From a virus, in the IMG/VR virus record IMGVR_UViG_3300037585_003754, positions 1 to 36,078 of that record: a stretch of DNA of 36,078 bases. One strand, given 5' to 3'. Shown one piece after another: positions 13,232 to 32,251 of the stretch; positions within the stretch are counted from its first letter, which is position 1; each line of letters opens with the position of its first letter. The translations under genes and the position numbers were made by a program. The notes under the pieces are model-generated. The model had not been told where the DNA came from, did not search any database, and saw only the letters and a program-made list of their open reading frames with translations.

Positions 13232-16219
13232 ATGGCAAAGATACCACGTAGTTATAGGGGTCTGGGGGCGAGCGATTTTGTCGCCTATGATCCTTCGACG
13301 CCTGTTTTGGCTCCTATGGATTTAGTTGACTATTCAGGTGCGAGGCGTGCTTTAGATACAGGCTCAAAATATGCTGCCGATAGATACCATGTCGAGAGGG
13401 ATTTAGATGCCGAGTCTTATCATGATAAGAAGGTGAACGCTGGTGGTTTGTTACTGACTCAGAATATAAATGATGTAGGAAAAGATGGTTATGACACTTT
13501 TGACGAGGCGGCTGAACGGAGCCGTAGCGATTGGAAGGCGGCGAAGAAGAATTTGTACGATGAGAAAGTTGTTGAGAATATGCCTGCGAGAAGGAAGGCG
13601 GCGTTTAGGGCTGCCATGGATTTGTTAGATACAAAGCATGAAGCGTCGCTTGACAAGCTAAGAACTGAGTCTATTGTTTCTGATATTAAGGCTGGTCATA
13701 TTCGTGATGTGCGGGGGCTTTTAACTCGTGTTAGGGATCCTAATACGTCTATTGATTCTACTTTGGATGAATTTGAGAAATTTTTTAATGATCGTATGGC
13801 TACGGCTAAAGGTGGTGGCAAGGTTGAGACAACGGCTCAGGTTCAAGCTGCGTATGTCAAGGACTCGAAGTTTATGGGCGAGGCGATTATTGATCGTTTT
13901 ACTTCTACTGTTATCAATAAAGCAACAAAGGGTTTGATTAAAAGCGATCAGGACTTAGGTGTGTCCTGGAATGGTGATAATTCCATAGGCTCGTATGGGT
14001 CAAAATTTTATTACCATTCTTATCTTGATCTTATTAAGGGCATTGGGGAAAATGGTGATTTTGCTAAATATTTGGCTCATACCTCTCCAGGCGCAGTAGT
14101 AAGGAAGTTGAATCGAGACCTTCATACCGCTTTAGAGTCTGCCAGTTCAGGGCGGACCAAGGTTTTAAAGCAGAGGGCTTATGATATAGAGGCAGGCTTT
14201 CTTGGGAGGGATTATCCTCCTACTGATGCAGAGATTGACGCCTTAAAGCGTGCGTATGTTAATGCTAATCTTCATTTTAGCGCTCAAACATATAATGCCT
14301 TAGCTTCGATTGGTCGCGAGCCAAGTCCTGAGGATAAGGAGAGTCTTACTAGATTCCAAAATGAGGTGATAGGGCCTGCCATTGATAAGGAAACTTACGG
14401 CATTTCCTTTGACGTTCCAACTATGATGGCCAAGGCTAACAAGTGGTTTGCCGAGGGGCGACTTCATCCTAAGCATTACAAGGATATCATGGGGGATCTT
14501 AGGAAGGAGTCTAGGGGGCAGAACAAGGACATTAATACCTTGGTTGGTAAGACAATTCAGAGGATTCAAAAGGAACACAAAATAACAAAAGGTAAAACCG
14601 CTGGAACCATGTCCGAGACTGAGCGTGAGTCGTGGGCGATTTTAAGTGATTCTTTAGGCATGGATATTGCTACTTATGTTCGAAACTATATACGGAAGAG
14701 GCACGCAGAGGCTAGCAGTCTTAAAGAAGAATTCAGGCCTGAGGAGGTTCAGAGTGAGATATTGGACTTAATTACCCAGGGTGTGAATAACGCCGGATTG
14801 TCTTCAGCTCGCCTTAATATCCCGCTTAATGATCTTGAGAGGGCATACGAGACCAGGCTTAATCCGTCTATTAAGACGACTTCTTATGACGATCTTCTTA
14901 TTGGGCTAGCTGAGGCGCGTGCTAAGAGATGGAAGAGGTTTTTAGGGACGCCTTCTTTGACGACCAAGAGCCAGGGCCCCAAGAGTGCGGTTTTTGGAAA
15001 CGATATGGGAGGCGGTTTTATACATTCGCTTTGGAAGTATAAGAATGATCCGGCTGCGTCTCAGAGATTGCTTCGTGAAAGTGGCGGGAAGCTTTGGTAT
15101 CATCAGATGGAATTTTCGAAAAATATGTACGAAATTGATGCCTTGAGGAAGAAGTATCTTCCTCCCGCCGAATATGCTCGGTATGGTGTTGTTACTGGTG
15201 CTGCTACTGGTGCTGCTACTTTTCAGCTGCCTGTTCAAAAGCCTGAGCCTGTTCAACAGCCTGAGCCTGTTCCAAAACTTGAGCCTGCTCAAAAGCCTGA
15301 GCCTGTTCCAAAACTTGAGCCTGCTCAAAAGCCTGAGCCTGTTCCAAAACTTGAGCCTGCTCAAAAGCCTGAGCCTGATAAACAGCTTGAGCCAACGGCA
15401 ACTGACGGTGGTGCTGGTTTGAAGGCTTTGCCTGAGGATCAGATGCCCCCTGATGTCAGGAAAGAGACTAAGGAGCGTCAGGAAGCAATACAAGCTGGCG
15501 AGGGAGAAGAGGTAGGGAAGGAGTATTTTAATCCTCGTATGCCAAGGTTGACAAAGGAATTATTAGGGCATACTGCTGATGGTAGGCCTATTTGGAAAAA
15601 CGAAACTGACGCTGATGGATGGGACTCTGAAAGCTCTGAGAGGGCTACTATTATAGAGGTGGATGGAAAATATTATTCTTATCCAACTTTATTTAATCAA
15701 AAGGTTGATGGGAAGCTTGAGCCTTATGAAGTTACAGAGGATCGAGCTAAAGAAATATTCATAGAGAATGAGGGTATTGACCCAGAGACAGGCATTAAGG
15801 CAAAACCTTTTGATGATCATGGTGAAGCTGAGGATTATATGATTGAGCGTTCTGAGCATTTGTCTGATCATTTGCATGGAAAAGGGGGTCAAGAAGATCA
15901 AGATACTACAATGCAAGAAATAACCTCTTTAAAGGCGCAAGGTAAGAAAACGGAAGCTATTGTTGTGGCCCTTGATAAAATTTCTGGCTTTTCTGATATG
16001 TTATCTCAAACCGGACAGGATGCGTCTGAGGTTGGTGCTGCTATTGTGCAAGATATTAAAGATGGTTATGAAACTGTTGCGGGAATGGGTCATGCCATGT
16101 CGGGCGAGATTGATGATGCTGTGGATACTTTGTTAGATTATCTGGAGAGGAAATTAAGCGGCGATCTTGATGATCGTGATAAGGTTGAAGAGATAGAGAA
16201 TAAGCTTAATAAGGAGTAA
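13232..16219 (+). CDS. internal virion protein C-like, with Pro/Glu repeat region
   Basis: A 995-aa protein in the T7 gp15 position with mostly helical, charged sequence (RYHVERDLDAESYHDKKVN) as in core proteins. Residues about 667-720 are a low-complexity KPEPVPKLEPAQ repeat (DNA repeat at 15260-15367). Past it, GKYYSYPTLFNQKVDGK, followed by AEDYMIERSEHL, resembles a small motif (YPT... then EA..Y...RS) found near the ends of phage internal proteins. The function would be DNA ejection across the envelope. No transglycosylase motif is visible, although one of the core proteins often has it. Confidence 0.78.
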   Translation: MAKIPRSYRGLGASDFVAYDPSTPVLAPMDLVDYSGARRALDTGSKYAADRYHVERDLDAESYHDKKVNAGGLLLTQNINDVGKDGYDTFDEAAERSRSDWKAAKKNLYDEKVVENMPARRKAAFRAAMDLLDTKHEASLDKLRTESIVSDIKAGHIRDVRGLLTRVRDPNTSIDSTLDEFEKFFNDRMATAKGGGKVETTAQVQAAYVKDSKFMGEAIIDRFTSTVINKATKGLIKSDQDLGVSWNGDNSIGSYGSKFYYHSYLDLIKGIGENGDFAKYLAHTSPGAVVRKLNRDLHTALESASSGRTKVLKQRAYDIEAGFLGRDYPPTDAEIDALKRAYVNANLHFSAQTYNALASIGREPSPEDKESLTRFQNEVIGPAIDKETYGISFDVPTMMAKANKWFAEGRLHPKHYKDIMGDLRKESRGQNKDINTLVGKTIQRIQKEHKITKGKTAGTMSETERESWAILSDSLGMDIATYVRNYIRKRHAEASSLKEEFRPEEVQSEILDLITQGVNNAGLSSARLNIPLNDLERAYETRLNPSIKTTSYDDLLIGLAEARAKRWKRFLGTPSLTTKSQGPKSAVFGNDMGGGFIHSLWKYKNDPAASQRLLRESGGKLWYHQMEFSKNMYEIDALRKKYLPPAEYARYGVVTGAATGAATFQLPVQKPEPVQQPEPVPKLEPAQKPEPVPKLEPAQKPEPVPKLEPAQKPEPDKQLEPTATDGGAGLKALPEDQMPPDVRKETKERQEAIQAGEGEEVGKEYFNPRMPRLTKELLGHTADGRPIWKNETDADGWDSESSERATIIEVDGKYYSYPTLFNQKVDGKLEPYEVTEDRAKEIFIENEGIDPETGIKAKPFDDHGEAEDYMIERSEHLSDHLHGKGGQEDQDTTMQEITSLKAQGKKTEAIVVALDKISGFSDMLSQTGQDASEVGAAIVQDIKDGYETVAGMGHAMSGEIDDAVDTLLDYLERKLSGDLDDRDKVEEIENKLNKE
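15260..15367 (+). repeat. three perfect 36-bp tandem repeats in a virion gene
   Basis: Copies begin at 15260, 15296 and 15332, with degenerate half-copies on both sides (from about 15231 to 15392). Each encodes PEPVPKLEPAQK. The repeats keep the frame, so copy number can vary by slippage without breaking the gene. The protein product is probably an extended rigid linker. Confidence 0.95.
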
Positions 16220-29148: not shown

Positions 29149-29373
29149 TTAGGATTTTGTCAGGACAAAATCTTTGCGTTTAATAACCGGATGAGATGGT
29201 GAAAAAGCAATCACCTCTCCGTTTGTTAGGCGGCAGGCTGTGGAGCCTGAGCCGTTTTGCTTTACGAAGGTGCGTGTGCATCCATCGTAATCTGATTGAA
29301 ACACGTTTCCGGGCTTCAAGTCAGCGAATGTACCTTCCTTTACAGAAGGTTTAGCGTTGAGACGAATCTTCAT
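29149..29373 (-). CDS. 74-aa hypothetical protein
   Basis: Starts MKIRLNAKPSVKEGTFADLK with AAAGGAG upstream. It has a beta-rich pattern with a compact barrel feel (GNVFQSDYDGCTRTFVKQNG, TACRLTNGEVIAFSPSHPVI). Its neighbour upstream in the operon is the glutamine amidotransferase. No known family is seen. Confidence 0.72.
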   Translation of the reverse strand: MKIRLNAKPSVKEGTFADLKPGNVFQSDYDGCTRTFVKQNGSGSTACRLTNGEVIAFSPSHPVIKRKDFVLTKS

Positions 29374-29420: not shown

Positions 29421-30116
29421 CTATGCCCCTTTTACGCCATCACGAATGTTTTGGCGTGACCACATTTTGTATTGCTTGTCTCTGCTGGAATAATATCCAG
29501 TCCCATATCCCATGTAGTAGTCATCAATGTCATCCCAATAGTATGCTTTCCTGGTTTGAACATGGTTGAGATTGGAATACCAAATGTCTTCGTGTTTTTG
29601 CCAGCTTCCATACAGGTTTACTTCTCCTGTGTTTTCCATTATGGCTATTTTTTCGTTTATGAATCTGAGAAAGCCTTTTTTGGTTTTATATGCCATGTAG
29701 GCTAGAGCTCTGCTGTCAGACCAATCTTCTTGGAGTGGTCCTTCAGGGAAGTCAGCTTCTCCTGAAAACGGCATGATGCTTTGTTTCCAATCTGACCATG
29801 TTCCGTTGTGAAATAAGACGGGATTTTTTGTCTTATCTTTTATAGTCAGGGCGACTTTTTTATCCATTGGGAAGGGGTGTGTGAGCTTTGGGCATACTTC
29901 TCCTACGCTTGCTATTCTAAAATGAATTATGTAGGGGAGAGTAGGCTTTTCTTTCTCTATGATTTCCATGACTTTAGCTGCGTCTATTGCTTTTTCGTAT
30001 GATATTTCTCCGTTTTTATACCATGCGATTCCCGCTCCATGCGGGTTTGTGTTTTCTGCTGGTGCTAATTCCGCAGCTGTGGGGTGTTCTTTTGTTGGGA
30101 CTAGTATTACGCACAT
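29421..30116 (-). CDS. class II glutamine amidotransferase (Ntn hydrolase)
   Basis: A 231-aa protein. The second codon is TGC, so removal of Met exposes the catalytic Cys (MCVILV). Further class II landmarks are NPHGAGIAWYKNGEI, IIHFRIASVGEVC followed by LTHPFP, and LFHNGTWSDW; these give the Arg and Asn-Gly that hold glutamine and the oxyanion. It would hydrolyse glutamine to supply ammonia. It lies two genes downstream of the amidoligase in one tight operon. GGAGG precedes ATG 30116. No synthetase domain is fused, so it must serve another protein. Confidence 0.85.
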   Translation of the reverse strand: MCVILVPTKEHPTAAELAPAENTNPHGAGIAWYKNGEISYEKAIDAAKVMEIIEKEKPTLPYIIHFRIASVGEVCPKLTHPFPMDKKVALTIKDKTKNPVLFHNGTWSDWKQSIMPFSGEADFPEGPLQEDWSDSRALAYMAYKTKKGFLRFINEKIAIMENTGEVNLYGSWQKHEDIWYSNLNHVQTRKAYYWDDIDDYYMGYGTGYYSSRDKQYKMWSRQNIRDGVKGA

Positions 30117-30332
30117 CTAATTTTCCTCCTTTGGCATTATCATTATTTCCTCGTTTAATCTTGCTGTTTCTTGCTCAACGATGCTTATGAGTTCGTGTTG
30201 GATTAGCATTTCTTTGAACTCTTTTGCATCCTTTTTGGTCTTGAATGTTTTTGGTTCTCTTTCTTCGTCGCTTATAAATGACAAGTGTTCGCATTCTTCT
30301 TCTTTGCAATTTCTTGCCAAAACGTATTTCAT
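30117..30332 (-). CDS. 71-aa hypothetical between amidoligase and GATase
   Basis: Starts MKYVLARNCKEEECEHLSFI, with a charged helix (TKKDAKEFKEMLIQHELISI) and an acidic tail ending MPKEEN. Its SD (GAGGAGGAA) is built from codons of the amidoligase's EEE tail, so expression is tied to that gene. It could be a substrate peptide, an adaptor or an unrelated small protein; nothing is recognised. The short Cys-x4-Cys (C9, C14) may be redox or metal related. Confidence 0.75.
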   Translation of the reverse strand: MKYVLARNCKEEECEHLSFISDEEREPKTFKTKKDAKEFKEMLIQHELISIVEQETARLNEEIMIMPKEEN

Positions 30333-30333
30333 A

Positions 30334-31383
30334 TTATTCCTCCTCGTAGATTTGGTGTGAGTATTCGCTGTTGTGGCGTTCTTCCAGTACCCGTCTTGAT
30401 ACGGTATGGATTTTTGTTGCTGGTTTTATGTTTTCTGGAATTAAGTAGGTTTGCTCTGGATGGCAGACATATTCTTCCAGTGGAATGTTATTGCCTGTAA
30501 GTTTTAATCCTTTGGCGCTTACCCATCCCATATGGTCATACAGTTTTGCGTGTGATTCGCCTTTGTATTGGATAGCTTGTTCTGGTGTGATTATTTCTTC
30601 GTAAATTTCTTGTTTTTTGCTGGTCATTTGCACTTCTGTTTCGTCTTCCCAGGCATCTTTTAATTCTTCTGTTTCGTTTTCTAAATAGTTTTCGACTGTT
30701 CTTAATGTTTCAAAGATGGCGCTTTTTATTAAATTAATATCTGGCGGGCTGGTGAAATCTTTCCAGCTTGTTTTGTTTTCTGGATTGGTGTGAAAGGCTG
30801 GGAGTAGTCTGAATTCCATGGTGTTCCAAAGGCCGTAGCAGTAGTTGATATGTGTATATCTATCTCCGCCTCTTCCTTCCACGTGCATTTGATCTTCTGC
30901 TCTGAATTCTGCTTTGCAGTAACTATTTTTACCGTTTAATCTTTCCCAGAATAGATGATTTTTGGGCAGGCCCATTTTATTGCCCCACTTGCCCATTTTC
31001 TTAATGTAGTAGTTGTAGTATTTTGGTGTTGCGAGTTTGATGTAGTTGTTTATATGTTTTACTGATACATGGACATGGATTCCACAAGTGGAGTTTGCAA
31101 GGTCTGGTGCAGCCTTGTTGATCCATGACTCTATGTGCCTTATTTGAAGAGGTTTGCTGGCGATTTCTCCTTTCCAGGTTGCTCTGTTGTCTGGTATAGC
31201 CACAGATCCGTCGTATTTAAGGTTTAACGGTTGTTTCAGTCTCTTGATGACGGCATTTTCGTTTCCTTCCGGGTGCGCTGGTAAGCCAGTTTCAGCACTT
31301 TTATATTTTGACCATGCTCCTTCGAATTCAATTCCTACGGCTCTTATGTGTTTTTGCTTAGGAATTATTTTTTGCTGTTTCAT
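30334..31383 (-). CDS. glutamine-synthetase-like amidoligase (Amidoligase_2 type)
   Basis: A 349-aa protein. ATG 31383 is chosen over TTG 31386, with GGAGG 6 bases upstream. Family motifs run in order: VGIEFEGAW (about 16-24), YDGSVAIP (57-64), WKGEIASKPL, TCGIHVHVS (about 99-107), KAEFRAEDQM, RYTHINYCYGLW and NTMEFRLLPAF. These match the acidic, Arg and His positions of the GS-fold amidoligases, which join an amine or ammonia to a carboxylate using ATP. The neighbouring class II GATase is the expected ammonia source. The last about 120 residues (from VQMTSKKQEI) are not recognised. The substrate is unknown. Confidence 0.85.
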   Translation of the reverse strand: MKQQKIIPKQKHIRAVGIEFEGAWSKYKSAETGLPAHPEGNENAVIKRLKQPLNLKYDGSVAIPDNRATWKGEIASKPLQIRHIESWINKAAPDLANSTCGIHVHVSVKHINNYIKLATPKYYNYYIKKMGKWGNKMGLPKNHLFWERLNGKNSYCKAEFRAEDQMHVEGRGGDRYTHINYCYGLWNTMEFRLLPAFHTNPENKTSWKDFTSPPDINLIKSAIFETLRTVENYLENETEELKDAWEDETEVQMTSKKQEIYEEIITPEQAIQYKGESHAKLYDHMGWVSAKGLKLTGNNIPLEEYVCHPEQTYLIPENIKPATKIHTVSRRVLEERHNSEYSHQIYEEE

Positions 31384-32251
31384 CAAATTCCTCCATTGAA
31401 ATGATCATTGACTTGTCATAAGGCATGATGTTTTCTGAATAAATTTTATAAAATAGTTCTTTCAATCTCATCATGTAGTCATCTAGTGTTTTGCTTGGGA
31501 ACAGCCCGTCTATGCTTACTATGATGGGCTTGTTTGGGTTCATATACATATAGTCTAGGTCGTTTTTGAAGATTTCATTTGCAGGGGTTTTTGCTTTTGG
31601 CAGGCCTTTTTCGTCTACTGGGTAGTCGTTTACTGCGCATAGAAATCCAATGTTTGGTTTCCCGTTTTGGTTGACAAGTTTTCTTCCGCCGTATTCGAAA
31701 TAACAGAGATTTCTATAATCGTCATGTAGGTAATAATTATGATATGATCTTTGGGGATGGGCTTCAGGGATTGCTGCTGATTTCCACTTATAATCTTGTT
31801 TTTGTGCGGAATATCCTTTGTCGAACCAGTTATCTCTGAAGTATGTCTGTAGTATAGGGCTTTCGAATAGGATTTGTATTCCAGCGTTCATGCGTTGTAT
31901 TCGTATTTTATGAAGGACTCCCTTTTTCGGGGGGTCCTGTTTGACTATTACAATCTCTTTCTTGTTATCCATAAGCTGAACTCCTTTCCTTTCTGTTGGC
32001 ATGAGTGCTATTTTTTCTTTTCTTCTAATTCTGAATCTGCATCCTTTACAAACCTTAGTCCTGATTGTTTTAGGTGTTGGTCTAGTGCATCTCATTCCAC
32101 ATTCAATGCACGTTATCGGATGATCCTGGTAGTTGGTTGTTGATATTGGCTCTACTGCTGGTGGTGCTGGGGCTGGGTAATCTTCTGATATAGCCGTCCA
32201 ACTATTTACATCTAGTTGTTCAATATTTTCTCTTCCTTCTTCTATGGGCAT
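31358..32251 (-). CDS. 297-aa protein with N-terminal zinc site, upstream of amidoligase
   Basis: It has an acidic Pro-rich start, then CIECGMRC (residues 48-55) and CKGCRF (about 70), a four-Cys zinc ribbon. From about residue 94 a second unit begins (MDNKKEIVIVKQDPPKKG), with its own SD AAAGGAG upstream of an in-frame ATG (minus strand, near 31972), so two products are possible. The rest is unrecognised (YLHDDYRNLCYFEYGGRKLV, PNKPIIVSIDGLFPSKTL). It overlaps the amidoligase gene by 26 bases, suggesting a shared task. Confidence 0.75.
   Translation of the reverse strand: MPIEEGRENIEQLDVNSWTAISEDYPAPAPPAVEPISTTNYQDHPITCIECGMRCTRPTPKTIRTKVCKGCRFRIRRKEKIALMPTERKGVQLMDNKKEIVIVKQDPPKKGVLHKIRIQRMNAGIQILFESPILQTYFRDNWFDKGYSAQKQDYKWKSAAIPEAHPQRSYHNYYLHDDYRNLCYFEYGGRKLVNQNGKPNIGFLCAVNDYPVDEKGLPKAKTPANEIFKNDLDYMYMNPNKPIIVSIDGLFPSKTLDDYMMRLKELFYKIYSENIMPYDKSMIISMEEFDETAKNNS

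Follow-up and report, generated by a model that had tools for sequence, protein, structure and literature searches.

Gene order at the locus

The stretch of DNA examined here (the window) is one virus record of 36,078 bases, and its minus strand carries a small operon. The first gene, ORF297 (31358..32251), encodes a member of a protein family that we call X. It lies immediately upstream of the gene for a GS-like amidoligase of the Amidoligase_2 type (30334..31383, 349 aa), which it overlaps by about 26 nt. Next come ORF71 (30117..30332), a lineage-specific small protein situated between the two enzymes, and a predicted stand-alone class II GATase of 231 aa (29421..30116), an Ntn glutaminase domain with Cys2 as its nucleophile. 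The initial annotation had placed the amidoligase, a 71-aa ORF and the GATase correctly, tightly spaced on this strand. However, its coordinates stopped too early, at 31383. ORF297 is just outside and was missed, and the conserved unit extends to 32251.

Neighbouring genes of the operon are separated by gaps or overlaps of only a few bases, and each is preceded by a strong ribosome-binding site (GGAGG/AGGAGG). These are AGGAGGAAAATA for ORF297, GGAGGAATTTG for the amidoligase ATG at 31383, GAGGAGGAATAAT for ORF71 and AAAGGAGGAAAATTAG for the GATase. An ORF listing gives an alternative amidoligase start, a TTG three bases upstream at 31386, and the motif positions cited below are numbered from this TTG. 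A consensus scan for minus-strand terminator-like sites found none inside the operon; all were outside it. When compared with the nearest relative, L029, all four genes bear the mark of purifying selection (dN 0.26-0.44, dS 1.2-2.3).

The operon is located in the minus-strand gene block of the phage, among small minus-strand genes. Downstream of the GATase is ORF74 (29149-29373), whose match to phrog_6570 (E 3e-8) puts it among small, functionally uncharacterised phage families; L029 has a homologue at the corresponding position. Otherwise the window is a typical tailed phage, and its virion genes, of podovirus type, include those for a terminase, a portal-type head-tail adaptor, a major head protein, tail tubular proteins and internal virion proteins. 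It also encodes a Sak4-like ATPase and a nuclease. Among the virion genes is one for a 995-aa protein (13232-16219) with no PHROG match. A tRNA scan of the window found none, and the defence-system models that were run gave no match.

The amidoligase

The GS-like motifs named in the initial annotation are all present: VGIEFEG (17-23), YDGS (58-61), CGIHVHV (101-107) and MEFRLL (190-195). In an alignment of 26 amidoligases, E20, E22, D59, G102, H104, H106, R176, T189, E191 and R193 are invariant, and the GS-like motif set as a whole (ExE, DGS, GxHxH, RY and ExR) is invariant or nearly so. The core residues of the GATase are similarly invariant across 21 sequences (see below), and therefore the motifs quoted for the two enzymes are not a product of chance.

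The family label is less straightforward. When searched singly against PF12224, the check that the initial annotation had proposed, the window amidoligase gives no match, its score being below detection with the Pfam model. Fifteen of the 26 aligned amidoligases, controls included, do match PF12224 singly. Because the window protein has no match of its own, the label was tested through its relatives. In a profile-profile comparison, 22 amidoligases of the window's family were set against 7 further phage amidoligases, some of which match PF12224, and the probability was 98.5 (E 2.4e-15). Membership of PF12224 is thus based on the siblings and on this comparison, and judged by sequence the 349-aa protein is an amidoligase.

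Structure prediction takes this a little further. An AF2 model, built from an alignment of the window and viral-contig sequences only, is confident for the core (residues 14-237, pLDDT mostly above 85) and of low confidence for the C-terminal third, an extension. A Foldseek search of the PDB with this model gave no significant match; the top-ranked entry was glutamine synthetase (E 0.82), with YbdK in fourth place. The sequence profile has YbdK as its best PDB match (E 0.17). The structural relation to GS and YbdK is suggestive. A separate observation is that the amidoligases of L023 (6473-7825), L026 (6476-7885) and L048 (6014-6904) have a dense Cys-rich insert, full of CxC/CxxC motifs, which follows the DGS motif and precedes GE; the corresponding loop of the window protein is short. 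Possibly this insert binds metal.

The GATase and its partner ligases

The cysteine at position 2, which the initial annotation had pointed out, is invariant across 21 GATases, as are N24, G27, G29, R67, H103-N104-G105 and S133-D134. C2, R67, N104-G105 and D134 make up what, by sequence, is a complete class II glutaminase signature. The proposed search against class II profiles succeeded for the family but not for the window protein alone, which hits GATase_4 only, with a match (E 0.011) that falls short of the cut-off. Six of the seven aligned members match GATase_4 (best 1.3e-7), homologues match both GATase_4 and GATase_6, and the best PDB match of the GATase profile is PurF (1ao0/1gph, E 0.006). 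We therefore take the 231-aa protein to be a class II glutaminase domain.

The suggestion that this enzyme and the amidoligase form a coupled pair has held up well. In about 44 of the 50 loci that hold upstream sequence, the GATase is preceded by an amidoligase ORF whose end lies no more than about 700 nt away. This is a hand count of records that are not all independent. It takes in three weak matches (E 3e-3 to 6e-3), as well as L067 once its over-long ORF had been corrected, and many of the loci were found from the GATase sequence alone. That ORF of L067 (607 aa) looked like an amidoligase-GATase fusion, and proved to be an artefact in which the first 400 aa come from another frame. No such fusion was found among the loci examined. 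In two of the six exceptions to the pairing (L047 and L049), the place of the amidoligase upstream of the GATase is taken by a COOH-NH2 ligase, which suggests that the GATase serves different GS-fold ligases. The segments concerned (L047:3494-5429 and L049:1-3576) pair the GATase with one or two COOH-NH2 ligases (PF14395) and hold no Amidoligase_2 gene.

Some loci depart from the simple arrangement in other ways. An amidoligase-like domain forms the C-terminal part of 636-963-aa proteins in L061 (4119-7001), L063 (4110-7001), L054 (5007-6971) and L056 (5077-6987). These large proteins have long uncharacterised N-termini and are encoded upstream of distant GATase homologues, and in L054 and L056 another amidoligase-like ORF follows downstream. 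In L042 (3164-4144), the gene directly upstream of the pair codes for an AAA+ ATPase (PF00004). On contigs of four Bifidobacterium species (L065-L068) there are relatives of the GATase, and the one in L065 comes directly after an amidoligase-like ORF of 422 aa.

A third component, X

The initial annotation had proposed the 71-aa protein as a third partner. However, ORF71 does not belong to the conserved core: its homologue (56% identical, same position) is found in L029 only. The conserved third part is instead the gene directly upstream of the amidoligase, which is conserved across related viral contigs and in the window is ORF297. Members of family X are about 150-200 aa long, and in ORF297 an N-terminal Cys-containing region is followed by the conserved C-terminal domain (about residues 92-291). 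A profile from which both the window and its nearest relative were left out still finds ORF297 (E 1.2e-9), and when other members are withheld one after another they are recovered at 2.4e-6 to 1e-20. Whole-record searches found X in 20 of 28 viral records, once per record, and not in the other 8. The same 20 records helped to build the profile, so the informative part is the single occurrence in each.

The position of X is fairly constant. In most loci it is directly upstream of the amidoligase, the exceptions being L046, where it lies between amidoligase and GATase, and L032 and L035, where it is some kilobases downstream. Moreover, X can be joined to the amidoligase. It forms the C-terminal portion of the amidoligase chain in L022, L023 and L026 (held-out E 1e-9 to 8e-9), and in L030, L033 and L036 a divergent X-like domain at the amidoligase N-terminus (hhalign score 32; shuffled sequences reach 17.6 at most) is suggestive of a second kind of fusion. 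The X-bearing amidoligases fall in one clade (support 100/99), apart from Bacillus- and gut-phage amidoligases, with three long-branch members of the clade lacking a detectable X. From its linkage and its fusions, X is a conserved third component that behaves as an integral subunit.

What kind of protein is X? Twenty members gave no match to Pfam or PHROGs at the thresholds used, and one member hit PF08565 at E 0.09, which we take as chance. There was no match in any phage record when sequenced phages were searched by tblastn, none among PDB sequences, and none among PDB and BFVD structures for an AF2 model of medium confidence (pLDDT 71). X is therefore a protein family that has no profile in the copies of Pfam and PHROGs searched, and a previously undescribed partner. 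One clue to its role is that the alignment has no nearly invariant polar residue, and for this reason X is more likely to be structural or to bind something than to be a catalyst. ORF297 also has a CxxC...CxxC segment (residues 48-71; 32039..32110, minus strand), near-identical in L029, that looks zinc-ribbon-like and may bind metal. Most other X proteins lack this CxxC pair.

Comparison with known phage cassettes

The phiEco32/LUZ24/tf-type amidoligase cassette and its proposed role reportedly go back to Iyer et al. 2009. As the initial annotation had noted, the link between amidoligase and GATase is not new (PMC3890496, PMC10580990, PMC5498523, PMC10945688), and the pair itself is already known in phages. 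A cassette of amidoligase, GATase, ATP-grasp and GGCT has been published (PMC3890496; PMC5498523), and has been proposed on comparative grounds to act in peptidoglycan modification and superinfection exclusion (PMC5498523, PMC10580990). A different proposal, nitrogen metabolism, has been made for the amidoligase, GATase, GGCT and glutathione synthase genes of Phage-ZRK32 (PMC10945688). In the literature searched we came across no experiment that tests what the pair produces.

The phiEco32/LUZ24/tf cassettes resemble the window in having an amidoligase followed by a class II GATase on one strand. Further components, the COOH-NH2 ligase, the ATP-grasp enzyme and GGCT, are shared with some relatives of the window: a phiEco32-type COOH-NH2 ligase (PF14395) is present in 4 of 22 related records, GGCT in 5 and a RimK-like ATP-grasp match in 3. 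These genes link the window cassette to the published one. The initial statement that no cell-wall gene sits alongside is thus true of the window but not of its relatives. Within the window record, COOH-NH2 ligase, RimK-like ATP-grasp and GGCT were all looked for and are absent. Consequently, the full published pathway cannot run there, and we do not claim membership of the phiEco32 type. Two further differences are that the phiEco32/LUZ24/tf GATases, at 510-676 aa, are longer and score no better than E 0.0017 with the window-family profile, and that no X turned up in the cassette proteins examined. The protein encoded upstream of their amidoligases (gp17/phi32_85/tf_20) was considered as a homologue of X and rejected, there being no detectable similarity. 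The window cassette is a variant, not a member, of the phiEco32-type cassette.

Amidoligase-GATase pairs are found in other phages as well. OM43 phage MEP401/402, phage C75C1 and a Christensenellales phage have GATases homologous to that of the window (tblastn E 5e-2 to 5e-9) and, as in the window, an amidoligase upstream. Their amidoligases are more distant (about 20% identity), tblastn gave no X match in any of them, and C75C1 differs further in having a GATase-GGCT fusion. What is new at the window locus is the X-containing form of the cassette, along with family X itself.

A possible amidation system

What might the operon do? On balance we favour the view that X, amidoligase and GATase form a glutamine-dependent amidation system or complex, and that its likeliest target is a peptide-type carboxylate. 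The GATase would hydrolyse glutamine via its N-terminal cysteine and release ammonia. The amidoligase would activate a carboxylate of the substrate with ATP and transfer ammonia or another amine to it, and X might bind or position the substrate or else hold the two enzymes together. The physical complex, the direction of the reaction, ammonia as the nucleophile and the target are what we infer, whereas the family assignments, the conserved active sites, the gene linkage, the fusions of X and the purifying selection are what was observed. Peptide-type carboxylates come first because the companion genes of the relatives encode peptide ligases and an enzyme of gamma-glutamyl bonds. Candidate substrates would then be precursors of the peptidoglycan stem peptide, short peptides and side chains of proteins. 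The published hypotheses, too, point first to a peptide or cell-wall precursor, although a cell-wall precursor in particular is a tentative choice, somewhat short of an even bet.

MurT/GatD, a Mur ligase with a different class of glutaminase, differs in its folds from the window pair. The principle is alike, in that a ligase and a glutaminase amidate a carboxylate (PMC3267633), and the comparison is an analogy only.

What if the two enzymes oppose each other? In this scenario, the amidoligase would build a peptide or isopeptide bond by joining an amino acid to an acceptor, and the GATase-like Ntn hydrolase would be an amidase that edits or removes it. A GATase-type Ntn fold could indeed hydrolyse an amide made by the amidoligase, which goes against reading it as an ammonia donor. 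The GGCT genes of the relatives fit here, since GGCT breaks gamma-glutamyl bonds and occurs either as a fusion with, or close to, related phage GATases or amidoligases, and there is no fusion or structural sign of an ammonia channel. However, all the checked class II positions for glutamine binding and catalysis are conserved, favouring glutamine as the substrate, and we consider an opposed pair unlikely.

A further variant, in our opinion improbable, makes X itself the substrate or carrier, a scaffold on which amidoligase and GATase build an amidated product. If true, this would be a new carrier-protein-based biosynthesis in phages, and X fused to the amidoligase would act in cis.

Auxiliary metabolic genes serving the nitrogen or amino-acid metabolism of the host, as proposed for Phage-ZRK32 from a similar gene set (PMC10945688), would be another explanation. 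It has little going for it here, because the operon sits among small phage genes, because X, of no recognised type, is a dedicated partner, and because scans of bacterial genomes turned up relatives of the GATase, all in Bifidobacterium contigs, but none of the amidoligase. We see it as very improbable.

Some phage base-modification pathways include class II GATases and amide-forming enzymes. Hypermodification of DNA or nucleotides, by amidation of a carboxylated base, would be in keeping with this and with the zinc-ribbon-like segment of X in the window's lineage. However, no base-modification enzyme was recognised among the annotated window proteins, and some relatives have peptide-ligase genes instead, leaving this explanation a slim chance at best. 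Finally, phage genes are densely packed and unlinked small genes can end up side by side, but incidental adjacency deserves next to no credence when amidoligases that share only about 25-40% identity are found in the same gene order, and when fusions and purifying selection are seen as well.

Outlook

Amidoligase-GATase pairs have been annotated in phages for years, and in the literature searched their role is hypothesis only. The glutamine-dependent amidation that we favour can now be framed around a defined minimal system, X, amidoligase and GATase, given that in some phages X and the amidoligase are a single polypeptide. X thereby offers a handle for finding the substrate.
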